Shown here piece by piece: positions 246 through 16,658 of a stretch of 64,000 nt of DNA. Source of the DNA: Pseudomonas sp. PSE14 (GTDB lineage Bacteria; Pseudomonadota; Gammaproteobacteria; Pseudomonadales; Pseudomonadaceae); NCBI RefSeq assembly GCF_029203285.1, contig NZ_CP115669.1, forward strand, positions 2,914,001-2,978,000, in the 5' to 3' direction. Under the pieces are notes generated by a model. The model ran no database searches. It saw nothing but the letters and a program-made list of their open reading frames with translations, and was not told the origin of the DNA. Every line of letters starts with the position of its first letter. Positions within the stretch are counted from its first letter, which is position 1. The translations under genes were made by a program, and so were the position numbers.

Positions 246-321
246 GTAGGGCGCATAACCCGGAACGGGTTATCCGCCGACGCAACCACGGCGGATAACG
301 CTGTCGCGTTATGCGCCCTAC
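246..321. repeat. 76-bp palindromic intergenic repeat
   Basis: The outer arms GTAGGGCGCATAAC and GTTATGCGCCCTAC are perfect reverse complements. Inside them GTTATCCGCCG pairs with CGGCGGATAAC. Related palindromes occur at 6222-6249, 6315-6342, 15816-15848, 16163-16226 and 39952-39987. No coding sequence is present. It separates the two operator-like sites upstream of exaC. Confidence 0.85.
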
Positions 322-344
322 GGTGCTCATTTGGTAGTAGATGT
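322..344. promoter_or_regulatory. Second operator-like motif upstream of exaC
   Basis: This is a near copy of the site at 206-227 (shared TCATTTGGTAGTAGA on the plus strand), in the same orientation, about 115 bp further from exaC and on the far side of the palindromic repeat. It may be a second binding site or a duplicate made when the repeat inserted. Confidence 0.4.
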
Positions 345-360
345 GGAGCGTGGGCTCTTC

Positions 361-653
361 GTAGGAGCGGACTTTGTCCGCGATGCTTTCTGGTTGGGTG
401 TTTCTGCGCCGCTTCGGTGTGTGCTGAAAGTCCTTGTTTCGCCCCCTCGGGCGAGTCACTTCTTCCAAACGCCGAAGAAGTAACCAAGAAGGCTTGCCCC
501 TGCATCCGGGTCCCGCTTCGCGGGACTCCCCTCGTTCCATCGAAGTTTCAGGGGCCCGCCGCGAAGGGCCGCCCATGGCCCATCGCGGCTCTCGCGGCAT
601 CCATGCCGCTTAACCCCTGAAACTCCGATTCCACTCGGCCTCCTGAAGGGGCA
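361..653 (+). repeat. Structured intergenic element, copy A
   Basis: It starts with a REP-like palindrome (GTAGGAGCGGACTTTGTCCG) and ends at CCTCCTGAAGGGGCA. Four stems are visible: ACTTCTTC/GAAGAAGT (458-481, loop CAAACGCC), GTCCCGC/GCGGGAC (510-526), CCGCGA/TCGCGG (559-588) and a long outer stem GTTTCAGGGG/CCCCTGAAAC (545-623). A further fixed hairpin GCGGCatccatGCCGC lies inside the outer stem. Copies B (15780) and C (16380, reverse) keep the stems while changing their sequence. Short open frames across it have no recognisable protein and are not annotated. The rest of 654-796 shows nothing recognisable. Confidence 0.85.
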
Positions 654-796
654 GTCCGGAGCGTGCGGATGTTTTTCTGGAAGTCTCATAAGAGCCAGGG
701 CAATGCGGCGGACCGGCTCGCGTAGGAGCACATCCCTAGCCCGCAAAAACAAAAGGCCGGCTCAACGGCCGGCCCCCTGCTCACCTCACAGCAACC

Positions 797-11952: not shown

Positions 11953-14580
11953 TCAGTCGGTACGCTCCAGCAGGTGGCAGAGCGCGGTCTTCAGCTTCAT
12001 CGGCCTTACCGGCTTGTGCATCAGCATGTGGCCGAGCTCGCGGACCTGCTGCTTGAGCTCGTTGCTGTAGTTGGCGGTGATCATCAGCGCCGGTAGCGGC
12101 GTGCCGCGCCGGGCATTGATCGAGGCGACCGCATCGACGCCGTTCAACCCGTCATCCAGGTGGTAGTCGACGATCAGCAGGTCGGATTCGGCGTGGAAGT
12201 TGTCCACCTGGCGCGCCAGGTCCTCTTCCGAGAGCGCGGTCACCACCCGACAACCCCAGGTTTCCAGCAGCGTGCGCATGCCGGCGCAGATCGAAGCGTC
12301 ATTATCCAGCACCCACACCCGCGAGCCGCGCAGGCGCTCCACCAGATCGGCGGCCGGGCGTTCCGGCTCGGGTGCGGCGCGCGCCACACGGCGCGCCAGG
12401 GGCACTTCGACGGCGAAGCGCGAGCCCTTGCCGGGCACCGACTCCACCTGGATGCGATGGCCGAGCATCCGCGCGATCTTCTCGACGATGGCCAGGCCCA
12501 GCCCGAGGCCGCGATCCTGGTTCGAGCGCTGCACGTCGCCGCGTTTGAACTCCTGGAATATCTCGCCGAGCTTGTCGGCCGCGATGCCGACACCGGTGTC
12601 CCAGACCTCGATCCACAGGCTGTGCCGGCGCCGCCGGCAGCCCAGCAGCACACGGCCCGACGGCGTATAGCGGATGGCGTTGGTCAGCAGATTGCGCAAG
12701 ATGCGCGCCAGCAATTGCATGTCGCTGCGGACCTGGGCGCCACAGGCAACGAAGTCCAGCGCCAGCCCTTCGCTGGCCGCAACCTGGCGGTACTCGGCAG
12801 CAAGGTTGTCGAGCAGTTCGCCGACATCGAACGAGGCGATGTCCGGCTTGATCACCCCGGCATCCAGCTTGGAAATCTCCACCAGGGTACCGAGCAAGTT
12901 CTCCACGTCTTCCAGCGACTGGCTGATATTGCGCACCAGGGCTTCGCCGCTGCGCTCCTGCAGCGCACTGGTGAACAGCCGCGCGGCATTCAGCGGTTGC
13001 AGCAGGTCGTGGCTGACGGCGGCGAGGAACTTGGTCTTCGACAGGTTGGCCTGCTCCGCCTCGCGCTTGGCCTCGCGCAGGCGCGCCTCGACCTGGCTGC
13101 GCTCGTCGATCTCGCGCTTGAGCTGGTCATTCAGGCTGGTCAGCTCGGCGGTGCGTTCGCGCACCCGCTGTTCGAGGTTCTGGTAGGCCTGGTGCAGCGC
13201 CTCGGCGGTGCGGCGGCGCTCGGTGATGTCGCGGATCAGCACGAACAGCCCGCTCACCGTGCCGTCGGCCTGGCGGTTGGGCACGTAGGAGCGCTGCATG
13301 TAGCGCTCCTGCCCGGAGAGATTGGTCTCGGCGATCTCGAAGGTGACGCTCTCGCCCGACAGCGCACGCTCGAAGTACGGCTCCAGGCGCTGGCAATGGT
13401 CCTCGCTGTGCACGTCGCGCAGGTTGCGCCCGAGCATCGAGCCGCTGGGCCAGCGGTACCACTCCTCGTAGACCTTGTTGGTGAACTCGTAGTTGAGTTC
13501 GGCGCTCAGGTAGGCGATCAGCGCCGGCACCTGGTCGGTGATCAGGCGTATCCAGCGTTCGCTCTCGCGCAGCGCCTCGGCGTTGCGGTAGCGCTCGGTG
13601 ATGTCGGTGAAGGTGTTGACGAAGCCGCCGGTGGGCAGCGCGTGGGTGCGGATTTCCAGCATGCGGCCATCGAACAGGCGCTGTTCCAGCACGCCTTCCG
13701 CACTGCCGTGGCGGGCGCGGCTGCGCGGGGTCAGCAAGGGCAGTTCGCTGTCGGCCATGACCTCGGCGAAAGGCCGGTGCGCCTCGATCGGCGCCAGCCC
13801 GCAGAGTTCGAGGAAGCGCCGGTTCCACAACTCCAGCGCGCCATCGGCGCCGACCATGGCCACGCCCTGGGACAGGTTGTCGACGGCGCGCTGCAACAGG
13901 TGCGACTTCTGCGCCACCGCCTGTTCGCGGCGGGCCATCTCGCTCTGTTTGATCTCGGTGATGTCGCTGTAGAGCACCACCAGCCCGCCGTCGCGGGTCG
14001 GCCGCTCGGTGACGCGCACCCAGCGGTCGTTGCGCAGGCGGTAGAGGGTGTGTTCGTCGTCGCTGCTGCGCTGCTCCTCGACGATCAGCCCGCTGCTCTG
14101 TGCCAGCCGGCGTACTTCGGTGAGCCGGGTTCCCGCGCCGACGCGGGCGCGGGTCTGCGCCCAGAAGGCGCGGAAGCGCTGGTTGTAGAGGACGATGCGC
14201 TGCTGCGGATCGAACAGCACGAAGGCATCGGAAATGCTCTCGATGGCATCCAGCAGGTGCTGGTGCGCGGTCTCGGCGCGCAGGCGAGCGTCGCTGAGCA
14301 GCTGGTTGCTGGATTTCAGCTCGACCATTGCCTCGCTCAGCGCATCGGTGCGCTCGCGCACCTGTTCGGCCAGCACCACCGAGTGCTGGAAGGCGCCGTA
14401 GGCGTTGTCGCCACGCGAGGTGGCCGACTCCACGCGTTCGATCAGCGCCGCGTTGATCCGCTGCAGCTTGCGGTTGTCGCGCTCCAGCTCGTCGATGCGG
14501 GCGCGCAGCTCAGTGTCCGGCGTTGCCGCGAGGACGGCCAATGGCGACACCGGTGAAGGTCTGGTTGATGTGCATGCCAT
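11953..14580 (-). CDS. nahK: PAS hybrid sensor histidine kinase NahK/ErcS'
   Basis: An 875-aa cytoplasmic hybrid kinase: N-terminal coiled coil (about 20-115), three PAS-like domains (about 105-210, 225-330, 335-455), a second coiled coil, HisKA with phospho-His near residue 524 (AAVSHDLLQPLNAA), HATPase (GLGLGLAIVEKIARMLGH) and a receiver with Asp near 805 (LLIVDYHLDDG). No membrane span is seen. In P. aeruginosa the same gene (PA1976) is linked both to NO signalling through NosP and to ethanol oxidation. ATG at 14580 has GGAGAG 7 nt upstream, so the 71-bp overlap with nosP is accepted; GTG further in is an alternative. Confidence 0.87.
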   Translation of the reverse strand: MACTSTRPSPVSPLAVLAATPDTELRARIDELERDNRKLQRINAALIERVESATSRGDNAYGAFQHSVVLAEQVRERTDALSEAMVELKSSNQLLSDARLRAETAHQHLLDAIESISDAFVLFDPQQRIVLYNQRFRAFWAQTRARVGAGTRLTEVRRLAQSSGLIVEEQRSSDDEHTLYRLRNDRWVRVTERPTRDGGLVVLYSDITEIKQSEMARREQAVAQKSHLLQRAVDNLSQGVAMVGADGALELWNRRFLELCGLAPIEAHRPFAEVMADSELPLLTPRSRARHGSAEGVLEQRLFDGRMLEIRTHALPTGGFVNTFTDITERYRNAEALRESERWIRLITDQVPALIAYLSAELNYEFTNKVYEEWYRWPSGSMLGRNLRDVHSEDHCQRLEPYFERALSGESVTFEIAETNLSGQERYMQRSYVPNRQADGTVSGLFVLIRDITERRRTAEALHQAYQNLEQRVRERTAELTSLNDQLKREIDERSQVEARLREAKREAEQANLSKTKFLAAVSHDLLQPLNAARLFTSALQERSGEALVRNISQSLEDVENLLGTLVEISKLDAGVIKPDIASFDVGELLDNLAAEYRQVAASEGLALDFVACGAQVRSDMQLLARILRNLLTNAIRYTPSGRVLLGCRRRRHSLWIEVWDTGVGIAADKLGEIFQEFKRGDVQRSNQDRGLGLGLAIVEKIARMLGHRIQVESVPGKGSRFAVEVPLARRVARAAPEPERPAADLVERLRGSRVWVLDNDASICAGMRTLLETWGCRVVTALSEEDLARQVDNFHAESDLLIVDYHLDDGLNGVDAVASINARRGTPLPALMITANYSNELKQQVRELGHMLMHKPVRPMKLKTALCHLLERTD

Positions 14581-15667
14581 TGAACTGCTCTCCGTAGGTG
14601 TTGAAGCCGATCACCTGCTGGCTTCGGAGAAACTCGGCGGTGGCCTCGGTATCGCCGGCCACTTCCAGCTCCAGGCGGCGCAGGAAGCAGTCGCAGCCGA
14701 TGGTCAGGAGTGGCGGACCGAGGCGTTCGTGCAGGCGCCGGAACTGTTCCTGCAACCCCGGCAACAGCGGTCCGGTACGCATGGCGGTGAGGACGATGCC
14801 GTTCTCCACCGCGCAGTAGAAGGTCAGGCTGAGGTCGTCATTGACCTGCTGGATCGAGCGCACGTAGTACTGGTCGCGCACCCGCACGGCCAGCGGGTGG
14901 CTGGGGAACAGGGCGAAATCCAGTTGCTCCAGCGGCACCCCGACCAGGCGGGCGAACTCCAGCGCGGCCGGCTCGGCGTTGAGCTCCAGCACGCGGCGGC
15001 TGTCGCTGTCGGCACGGGTGACCACCAGTTTTTCGTCGCTGGGCAGCACGTGGTGGGTGGTGAACACCTCGAAGTCCAGCCAGGTATTGAACAGCACCAC
15101 CACCGCCGCGCCGGTGTGGAACTGGCCCTGGTAGTAGACGTGGGTGTGGGTCAGGTGGTTGTCGTCGCCGGCCGAGCCGCCGAAATGCGGGATGGCGCCC
15201 AGCGCGGCGCTGAGCGCGGCGAGCACCACTTCCTCGCGGCTGGAGAGGCCGTCGAGCAGGGTCAGGGCGAAGCTGTGGTCCTTGATCGGCGCCAGTCCGG
15301 CGCTGCGGCAGTCGGCCACCAGCGACTCGACCATCTGCTGCGCGTCGATCAGGCTGAAGCGCTCCATCTCGTCCACCAGCGCACAGGAGATGGCGAAGCT
15401 GCGCAGGTCGAAACCCACGGCGGTGATGCAGCCGCGGCCGTAGCCTTGCGGGGTGATCTCCCCGGCGGTGGTGCAACCCACCAGGTCGATGCCGCCGAAA
15501 TACTGCTCCAGCGCGCCGGCCAGGCCCGGCAGGTCGTACTCGGCCGAGCAGAAGAACAGCACGAAGCCCAGATGCGGATGGATCAGCTGGCGCGCCAGGT
15601 CCTGGGCGACTTCCTCGACGTCGCGGGCACTGGACATGCCGCGAACGACCCCTTGTGTTTCGTGCAT
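14510..15667 (-). CDS. nosP: FIST-domain sensor protein NosP
   Basis: A 385-aa soluble protein with FIST-N (about 30-220; signature LVGCTTAGEITPQGYG) and FIST-C (about 225-365) domains. FIST proteins sense small ligands; the P. aeruginosa counterpart (PA1975) is a heme-binding NO sensor that inhibits the co-encoded kinase NahK. The conserved pairing and the 71-bp overlap with the kinase gene support the same pair here. Heme-ligand His cannot be fixed without alignment. The upstream region is filled by repeats from 15780. Confidence 0.85.
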   Translation of the reverse strand: MHETQGVVRGMSSARDVEEVAQDLARQLIHPHLGFVLFFCSAEYDLPGLAGALEQYFGGIDLVGCTTAGEITPQGYGRGCITAVGFDLRSFAISCALVDEMERFSLIDAQQMVESLVADCRSAGLAPIKDHSFALTLLDGLSSREEVVLAALSAALGAIPHFGGSAGDDNHLTHTHVYYQGQFHTGAAVVVLFNTWLDFEVFTTHHVLPSDEKLVVTRADSDSRRVLELNAEPAALEFARLVGVPLEQLDFALFPSHPLAVRVRDQYYVRSIQQVNDDLSLTFYCAVENGIVLTAMRTGPLLPGLQEQFRRLHERLGPPLLTIGCDCFLRRLELEVAGDTEATAEFLRSQQVIGFNTYGEQFNGMHINQTFTGVAIGRPRGNAGH

Positions 15668-15779: not shown

Positions 15780-16116
15780 GCAGGAGCGGACTCCGTCCGC
15801 GATGCTCTTGCTCTTCGTAGGGCGAATAACGCGAAGCGCTATCCGCCGTTTTGGAGTTCGGCATTTCTGCGTCGCTTCGGCATGCGCGAGGACTTTTTGT
15901 TTCGCCCCCTCGGGCGAGTCACTTTTCTCAAACGCCAGAAAAGTAACCAAAAGGTCTCGTCCCGACATCCGGGTCCGGCTTCGCCGGACTCCCCTCGCTC
16001 CGGTATCGCTCCGAGGGTCGGCGTAGAAGGGCCATCCTTGGCCCTCTACGCCTCTCGCGGCATCCATGCCGCTCGCCCCTCTGCGCAATACCTCCACTCG
16101 GCCTCCTGACGGGACT
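15780..16116 (+). repeat. Structured intergenic element, copy B
   Basis: It begins with a REP-like palindrome (15780-15802), then a palindrome of the GTAGGGCG family (15816-15848) that is absent from copies A and C, then the shared body. Stems: ACTTTTCT/AGAAAAGT (15921-15944, loop CAAACGCC), GTCCGGC/GCCGGAC (15973-15989), GCGTAGA/TCTACGC (16021-16051), and outer GGTAT/ATACC with GAGGG/CCCTC (16002-16092). These stems differ from copy A at both arms together. Copy C follows in opposite orientation. Confidence 0.85.
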
Positions 16117-16162
16117 CTGCGCGCGCCTGGAACTTTGGCTGCTTCATGCTGGATCGCTCTTC

Positions 16163-16226
16163 GTAGGATGGCGTAGAGCGAAGCGAAACCCATCACGGCG
16201 GATAACGCTGCGCGCTATTCACCCTA
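16163..16226. repeat. Imperfect palindromic repeat of the GTAGG family
   Basis: The unit runs from GTAGGATGGCGTAGAGCG to CTATTCACCCTAC, with an inner CGGCGGATAACGC like the element at 246-321. It lies between the inverted structured elements B and C. The rest of 16227-16379 contains only REP-like fragments (for example TCGCGGACAAGG and CTCCTACGGGAG). Confidence 0.7.
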
Positions 16227-16379
16227 CAGGTGTTCATCCTGCAACGTGGGTGCTGTGGCAAGCCTTCGCGGACAAGGGCTAGGCGCCCCCGTCTCTCCTA
16301 CGGGAGCAGAAGCAGCGCGGAGCAGGACGCTCTGCTTTGGCTGTTGAGGTCTTCCAGAGAAATCTCCTTGTACTCCGAG

Positions 16380-16658
16380 TGCCCCTTCAGGAGGCCGAGT
16401 GGAATCGGAGTTTCAGGGGTTGAGCGGCATGGATGCCGCGAGAGCGTCGTTGGGCCATGGATGGCCCGTCGACGCGGGCCCCTGAAACTTCGATGGAGCG
16501 AGGGAACCCCGGCGAAGCCGGGGCCGGATGATGGGGCAGAGACCTTTGCCTACTTTGCGTCGTTTGGCAAAGTAGGTCGCCCGAGGGGGCGAAACAAGAA
16601 ACATCCGAGCACACAGAAGCGGCGCAGAACACCCAAACGAAAATGACCGCGGACAAGG
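16380..16658 (-). repeat. Structured intergenic element, copy C (reverse)
   Basis: The reverse complement of this segment follows copy A closely. Stems on the plus strand: outer GTTTCAGGGG/CCCCTGAAAC (16410-16488), GCGTCG/CGACGC (16444-16475) with inner GGGCCA/TGGCCC, CCCCGGC/GCCGGGG (16507-16523) and CCTACTTTG/CAAAGTAGG (16549-16576, loop containing the complement of CAAACG). Compared with A, three stems have changed on both arms. It ends next to a REP-like CCGCGGACAAGG. Confidence 0.85.

Follow-up and report, generated by a model that had tools for sequence, protein, structure and literature searches.

A TwoAYGGAY-type fold dispersed as a REP-like intergenic repeat in Pseudomonas, with a putative link to Rsm proteins

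What kind of element keeps its hairpins while both arms of their stems change, and on which strand does it act? The question is raised by three intergenic copies, A, B and C, in the window (the whole stretch of DNA analysed here, 64,000 nucleotides of Pseudomonas sp. PSE14). A first-pass annotation made from the letters alone had listed three stems (I to III) with constant loops, argued for selection on structure "as RNA or as extruded DNA", and knew no named family or function. The three copies and stems I to III are present in the sequence as claimed, and the core of the element does have a name, the Rfam family TwoAYGGAY (RF01731).

Structure of the element and its three copies

The boundaries of A, B and C were set with a profile built from 31 aligned copies (Table 1). 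The copies are real, but the extent first given for copy A, 361-653, began with a REP that lies outside its profile element; the same REP or its GTAGGGCG variant stands ahead of many copies in the oriented alignment of these 31. Copy B, taken at first for a third equivalent copy, does share the element but belongs to a diverged "type 2" and forms the partner arm of C, which is "type 1", and the loop of stem I, given as CAAACG, is actually the 8-mer CAAACGCC in A and B or CAAACGAC in C. That the elements are folded also stands, but the relevant strand is the opposite one: the reverse complement at A and B and the plus strand at C. Two features had been overlooked: an outer stem, of 18 pairs in both A and C, encloses stem III and another hairpin, and the conserved loops read ATGGAT on this strand.

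In all three copies the minimum-energy fold of the RNA strand is a three-way junction, its two hairpins having loops of the form C-ANGGAN-G. In core C the order along the plus strand is outer stem, GCGGC-ATGGAT-GCCGC, linker, a hairpin ending GGCC-ATGGAT-GGCC, and outer stem again. Beyond the core on its 3' side lie the variable hairpin II, then stem I, which is a long hairpin, and then the left hairpin. All three cores fold better than 200 of 200 dinucleotide shuffles (z from -4.85 to -6.81) on either strand, so stability alone does not pick the strand. An outermost helix, in which the 5' CCCC would pair with GGGG after hairpin II, is not claimed because no more than 3 of 28 and 8 of 108 sequences did better than every one of 20 shuffles. 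In several families (L172, L185, L188 and others) complementarity between 5' CCCC..CTTG of the core and CAAG..GGGG past hairpin II would allow it.

With cmscan, copy C on the plus strand scores above the RF01731 gathering threshold of 43, and B (matched to part of the model) and A, both on the minus strand, fall below it. Elsewhere, copies from other families included, scores at or above gathering were found for nine matches in 8 of 10 loci of the same genome, five matches in 4 of 5 loci of named genomes, and nine matches in 7 of 20 loci of a further set. Like TwoAYGGAY, the core holds two AYGGAY-type hairpins in a junction and an outer stem with G.A pairs; that this stem surrounds both hairpins is seen with RNAalifold, in the minimum-energy folds and through covariation at alignment columns 27-115 and 31-111. 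Loop 1 is ATGGAT in most copies and loop 2 has the form A-N-GGA-Y, in which N is mostly G, making the second loop wider than the family name. Unlike TwoAYGGAY as described, the element here is interspersed in many copies, has additional hairpins on its 3' side and REPs at its flanks, and forms inverted twins, and its placement does not suggest the Rfam type "Cis-reg".

An insert of some 14 bp, GGACTAGGCGTCCCC in one orientation or the other, recurs on either side of hairpin 2 in the type 2 copies L107, L110, L118, L124 and L100 and in L094, L120 and L121, and a similar string also occurs inside REP-type hairpins. Past the right end of the element, at its inner end, the hexanucleotide AGAGCC is tandemly expanded in L005, L012 and L029.

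Table 1. Features of copies A, B and C, in coordinates of the window
Feature	Position	Strand	Basis or remark
Copy A, type 1 element	401-686	+	nhmmer 295.5 bits, model 1-284 (L111:2002-2287)
Copy B, type 2 arm, inverted twin with C	15864-16141	+	nhmmer 211.5 bits; twin alignment
Copy C, type 1 arm, inverted twin with B	16349-16629	-	nhmmer 296.3 bits
REP GTAGGAGCGGACTTTGTCCGCGA (GTAGGAGCGG-ACTTT-GTCCGCGA)	361-383	+	sequence; beyond outer end of profile element of copy A
Core of copy A (three-way junction, RNA strand, TwoAYGGAY-like)	528-654	-	R1 138.4 bits; RF01731 38.8 bits
Outer stem of copy A, arm 1	539-554	-	partner 614-629; sequence and RNA fold
Outer stem of copy A, arm 2	614-629	-	partner 539-554; sequence and RNA fold
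Hairpin 2 of copy A (earlier stem III)	558-589	-	sequence and RNA fold
Hairpin 1 of copy A, loop ATGGAT on minus strand	594-609	-	sequence and RNA fold
Hairpin II of copy A (earlier stem II)	510-526	+	sequence
Stem I of copy A	458-481	+	sequence
Left hairpin CGCCCCCTCGGGCG of copy A	440-453	+	sequence
Terminator-like site, GGCCGTTGAGCCGGCC then TTTTGTTTTT	755-770	-	between gene 797-2800 and core A
Core of copy B, RNA strand, loops ATGGAT and AAGGAT	15991-16117	-	R1 110 bits; RF01731 42.2 bits
Core of copy C, RNA strand	16379-16505	+	R1 142.3 bits; RF01731 45.9 bits at 16397-16501
Hairpin 1 of copy C, GCGGC-ATGGAT-GCCGC	16424-16439	+	sequence and RNA fold
Hairpin 2 of copy C, loop ATGGAT	16444-16475	+	sequence and RNA fold
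Centre of the B/C twin	16142-16348	none	composed of REP-type hairpins (GTAGG..CCTAC)

Copy number, spread and genomic placement

The genome holds 60 copies of the left hairpin, 33 forward and 27 reverse (up to 3 mismatches over a 21-base pattern; 0 with the reversed control), and the covariance model counts 62 cores. Where two left hairpins are separated by less than 1 kb, all 13 pairs (15 of 15 by profile) share one arrangement, an inverted twin with the RNA strands directed away from a common centre, of which B and C are an example. Each of 14 aligned pairs joins one type 1 and one type 2 arm, and REP sequences occur near the outer ends and in the centre of the twin. These GTAG-type REP palindromes flank and sit inside the unit; the element itself is not a REP. 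In other genomes, neighbouring cores within 1 kb are divergent at 34 of 38 loci, tandem at 3 and convergent at 1, where the count is of loci, several from one genome, after removal of opposite-strand shadow matches. A further set of close neighbours gave 9 of 10 divergent and one convergent, the latter a reversed twin at L037:1084-1755 in which the RNA strands face each other.

A DNA search found the element in 21 of 24 genomes of the genus (the PSE14 genome included) and in none of 13 from other families. The covariance model reached further, with matches in 22 of 25 genus genomes (0 to 80 per genome), in 69 of 99 family genomes (15 of 19 genera) and in 37 of 274 class genomes (34 of 222 genera, the PSE14 genome included). 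Other families keep the fold although their stems are quite different, and so the copies are not merely recent duplicates with random changes, an outcome that the first-pass annotation had named as refuting it. Its remark that similar GAGTCACTTTT...AAAGTAACC text occurs in other gamma-proteobacteria was also right: of 39 class-wide matches, 24 have a downstream hairpin of at least 9 bp, and in about 15, judged by eye, the core is followed on its 3' side by a long, A/T-rich hairpin comparable to stem I, for instance CTTTTCTTTG..CAAAGAAAAG. In the class-wide cores L174, L176, L177, L180, L183, L184 and L187 the outer stem is long and TTCACGGC or a similar sequence comes after the second hairpin, and no stem I hairpin was seen in them by eye.

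Core-pattern matches in named genomes, 80 among the matches listed (at least 120), fall to Pseudomonas (76), Pantoea (2), Pseudomonadaceae (1) and Gammaproteobacteria (1). Divergent twin cores occur in L254 (Pantoea sp. Mb-10) and L322 (uncultured Pantoea), possibly through horizontal transfer or misassignment of contigs. Plasmids yielded one partial match in 72,556 records, covering the element's right end, on a plasmid of 847 kb from Pseudomonas aeruginosa (NZ_CP131792.1:338108-338164). None of 50,697 phage records held the element, and nine stretches on 8 viral contigs hold the core pattern.

With genes called by a simple codon-usage script, 30 of 50 clusters in the PSE14 genome lie between convergent genes, 19 between co-directional and 1 between divergent ones; the 54 neighbouring gene pairs of the window comprise 7 convergent, 40 co-directional and 7 divergent. 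Single copies between co-directional genes are sense in 6 cases and antisense in 7, so there is no bias toward the mRNA strand. Downstream of the gene at 797-2800 the element was found in 13 of 18 orthologous loci (some partial), in either orientation and twice as twins. Upstream of the gene at 14510-15667 it was found in 5 of 21, one of these (G020) a fragment near a contig end, and the 385 bp of flank examined at this site in G005 held no element. Compared by eye, orthologous sites gave no clean empty site and no resolved target duplication, and in most of the species compared these regions hold REP-type repeats whether or not the element is there; of the MITE features, inverted twins exist.

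A consensus scan for sigma-70 promoters gave none around A and none around B/C. A sense gene lies on the 5' side of 47 of 61 cores and is absent from the other 14. Between gene and core, a simple scan placed a terminator-like site in 12 of the 47 (2.3 expected from shuffled intervals) and none in 35. Copy A is among the 12, which makes read-through doubtful at A and possible for most others. Around B/C there are three terminator-like sites (1.1 expected), the left hairpin of B among them, and around A also three (0.8 expected).

Covariation, strand asymmetry and loop constraint

In an alignment of 69 cores, RNAalifold supports 27 pairs, 17 of them with double changes that keep the pairing. The rows, fetched by BLAST with copy A, were hand-picked from 92 with near-identical copies and copies with inserts excluded, the list of 92 itself omitting two cores (one with N) and exact duplicates. 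Covariation was tested with our own reimplementation of the R-scape idea, not R-scape itself, on 145 sequences aligned with MAFFT without regard to structure (mean identity 76%) against 60 null alignments made by shuffling substitutions on the tree; only rows of 115-132 nt entered, and 27 of 172 rows were dropped as opposite-strand shadows or duplicates. Five column pairs reached E<0.05: 49-58 in hairpin 1, 69-94 in hairpin 2, 27-115 and 31-111 in the outer stem, and 19-23, which is no base pair. Four of the five thus lie inside proposed helices, with none of the three core helices left without one, and the next-ranked pairs, 30-112 (E 0.083) and 68-95 (E 0.167), belong to the structure as well. 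The selection on structure proposed at the outset is supported by this tree-aware covariation.

The strand can be read from the kind of change. Over 36 helix pairs in the TwoAYGGAY sense, Watson-Crick pairs changed to G.U 74 times (71-77 over 50 reconstructions) and to A.C 23 times (21-27), next to 87 changes (80-95) to another Watson-Crick pair and 69 (64-74) to other mismatches, partly at G.A positions. G.U and A.C would be equally frequent if neither strand mattered, so the imbalance (two-sided binomial p 2e-7, assuming independent events) indicates a structure selected as a single strand, in the TwoAYGGAY sense. The standing pairs, 41 named pairs in the 69 cores, count 2314 Watson-Crick, 111 G.U, 21 A.C, 263 G.A and 120 other. 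These data support selection on the fold as a single strand, RNA or single-stranded DNA. Of the two forms left open by the first-pass annotation, strand asymmetry together with the ANGGAN loops favours RNA of one strand over extruded DNA, although it may also be single-stranded DNA.

The loops are constrained position by position. Loop 1 reads A.GGA in all 69 aligned cores; in loop 2 the A, G, G and A are kept in 69, 69, 67 and 68 of the 69, and N is G in 48, T in 16, A in 3 and C in 2. On the tree of 145 sequences the N of loop 2 changed 25 times and its last position 14 times, and the A, G, G and A 0, 0, 3 and 2 times; conservation of loop 1 in this set is biased, because the search pattern behind part of the rows prescribed loop 1 and left loop 2 free. 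Of 61 cores in the PSE14 genome, 56 retain both loops (55 by pattern and L104 by eye). The exceptions are copy A (second loop ATGGGC), L095 and L118, which have lost the second GGA, and L100 and L128, which are truncated.

A putative Rsm-binding role and its rivals

GGA in hairpin loops within the consensus ANGGAN is what CsrA/Rsm proteins recognise, and the cores carry it; as a sequence pattern, a varying N between fixed loop neighbours is the ANGGAN signature of CsrA/RsmA. The 39 class-wide matches have different stems and loops that are mostly ANGGAN or CAGGA-type, with exceptions such as a second loop ACGA in L179 and in the minus-strand core of L185. In CsrB of E. coli the repeat is CAGGA(U/C/A)G. 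The GGA loops of these matches are supportive and not independent, because the covariance model itself favours GGA. Most loops in the cores are ATGGA and AGGGA; according to the available portion of PMC9928087, RsmE bound no other ANGGA form effectively when probed with hairpins of single-stranded DNA. TwoAYGGAY shares the Rfam clan CL00106 with RsmY and RsmZ, which are likewise RNAs with GGA hairpins for Rsm proteins. Unlike those dedicated sRNA genes, the element is multicopy, sits mostly at gene ends and has no promoter in the consensus scan of A and B/C. The PSE14 genome has one CsrA and one above-cut-off match each to RsmY (RF00195) and RsmZ (RF00166). CsrA occurs in 34 of 37 genomes with a core and in 201 of 237 without, so its co-occurrence does not discriminate; in one genome with 3 cores (G233, 98% complete) CsrA was not found.

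The conserved parts would be best explained by an Rsm protein binding to RNA of one strand. We therefore hypothesize, as the reading that is on balance probable if only just, that the element is a TwoAYGGAY module, putatively Rsm-binding, which has been dispersed as a REP-like repeat and acts as a distributed decoy. It would encode a structured RNA on the strand opposite to that first read, with a long outer stem leading into a three-way junction in which each C-ANGGAN-G loop could fit one RNA-binding face of the RsmA/CsrA dimer, and with further hairpins on the 3' side. The module has spread as a REP-like intergenic repeat to some 60 copies, single or as inverted twins. Most copies lie past the 3' ends of genes, so that read-through transcripts could carry the hairpins and titrate Rsm proteins; transcription, protein binding and titration are all conjectural steps. 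Jointly the copies would form a decoy beside the dedicated RsmY and RsmZ, and local effects on the carrier transcript are conceivable. The main weaknesses of the decoy proposal are the near-equal use of sense and antisense positions, the terminators, and expression that is putative.

The strongest rival is a DNA-level repeat of the BIME, REPIN or MITE kind, in which a transposase or recombinase would act on hairpins of one DNA strand and mobility, not an RNA role, would maintain the fold; we regard it as a serious possibility that is nonetheless rather doubtful. Like REPs, BIMEs and REPINs, the element is intergenic, palindromic, high in copy number and biased toward convergent genes, with REP sequences at its borders, and its many copies, the REPs at ends and centre and the inverted twins all suit such a repeat. 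So do its presence in only part of the orthologous sites at one locus and in both orientations at another, the promoter scans that gave none, and the terminator that separates the neighbouring gene from core A. Even the strand asymmetry could be accommodated, in that G.T pairs are tolerated in single-stranded DNA too. The element differs from these repeats, however, in its length of about 285 nt and its conserved multi-helix fold on one strand, and no gene of the RAYT type was found with it: Y1_Tnp (PF01797) had 0 matches in the PSE14 genome (G000), although 5 of 14 control genomes were positive. Near-absence from plasmids and absence from the phage records also speak against mobility, the 8 viral contigs notwithstanding, and mobility leaves unexplained why N of ANGGAN varies between fixed neighbours and why stems are exchanged under kept loops between families. 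Mobility and an Rsm role may both hold for one element.

A 3'-end element, either a bidirectional terminator or a stabiliser of mRNA 3' ends between convergent genes, seems unlikely to us. The excess of convergent and scarcity of divergent settings would be expected of it, as would the very stable folds and the terminator-like sites above expectation near A and B/C. Yet no core hairpin on the RNA strand is among these sites, the one strong T-run near A belongs to the side of the neighbouring gene, and a terminator requires neither a conserved loop nor a three-way junction. The tail-to-tail bias, moreover, is seen in other P. fluorescens repeats and is explained there as a "least worst" site (PMC2718517, available portion). 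Most improbable is a coding repeat, a short peptide after the conserved AGGAGG: this motif is nearly invariant and GTG comes next in many type 1 and type 2 copies, but we rejected the idea because single-base indels fall in the frame (e.g. hairpin 2 of L045-L049) and a change in one arm is compensated in the other; the start is also lost in other copies. Triplex repeats were set aside for their different motif, as given in the available portion of PMC4666352. R26 (352 bp), R200 (320 bp) and Ppu-1 (617 bp) resemble the element in size class, copy number and intergenic location and may be the same repeat under other names, the comparison being with their descriptions in the available portions of PMC2718517 and PMC2267715.

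The core is a TwoAYGGAY member, and the idea that TwoAYGGAY binds CsrA is in print, proposed from its loop motifs (PMC4333381, available portion). In the open-access text of PMC4333381, PMC2864571, PMC11701678 and PMC11661157, as far as available, we found no binding test of TwoAYGGAY, and the available part of PMC9029176 does not name the family. As far as we searched in open-access text, what is new is the high-copy REP-like dispersal, the inverted twins, the strand asymmetry and the position-specific loop constraint. Titles and abstract openings in the open-access literature yielded no element linking Csr/Rsm with repeats. The Rsm-decoy reading would join dispersed REP-like repeats with Csr/Rsm RNA regulation, a pairing that we did not find in that literature, and would provide a repeat family with a testable biochemical activity, for which the range of 0 to 80 matches across 25 genomes of one genus would be a natural experiment on Rsm titration. 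A bolder form of it, which we advance only tentatively from the loop sequences, is that the interspersed repeat is a genome-wide Rsm/CsrA sponge whose more than 100 ANGGA hairpin sites, scattered along gene flanks, would set the level of free RsmA, copy number thereby tuning a global post-transcriptional regulator. If so, read-through from either neighbour of an inverted twin would meet one core in sense.

Some sRNA families were observed near the element. The repeat hairpins beside copy A (window 258-351) have a sub-threshold likeness to the Pseudomonas sRNA P33 (27.3 bits, gathering 45). In other loci, Rfam sRNA-Xcc1 (RF02221, 67.9 bits) lies a few hundred bases from a twin (L123:1220-1303), and P24 sRNA (RF00629, 202.8 bits) lies less than 1 kb from a core in another genome (L139:2494-2748).
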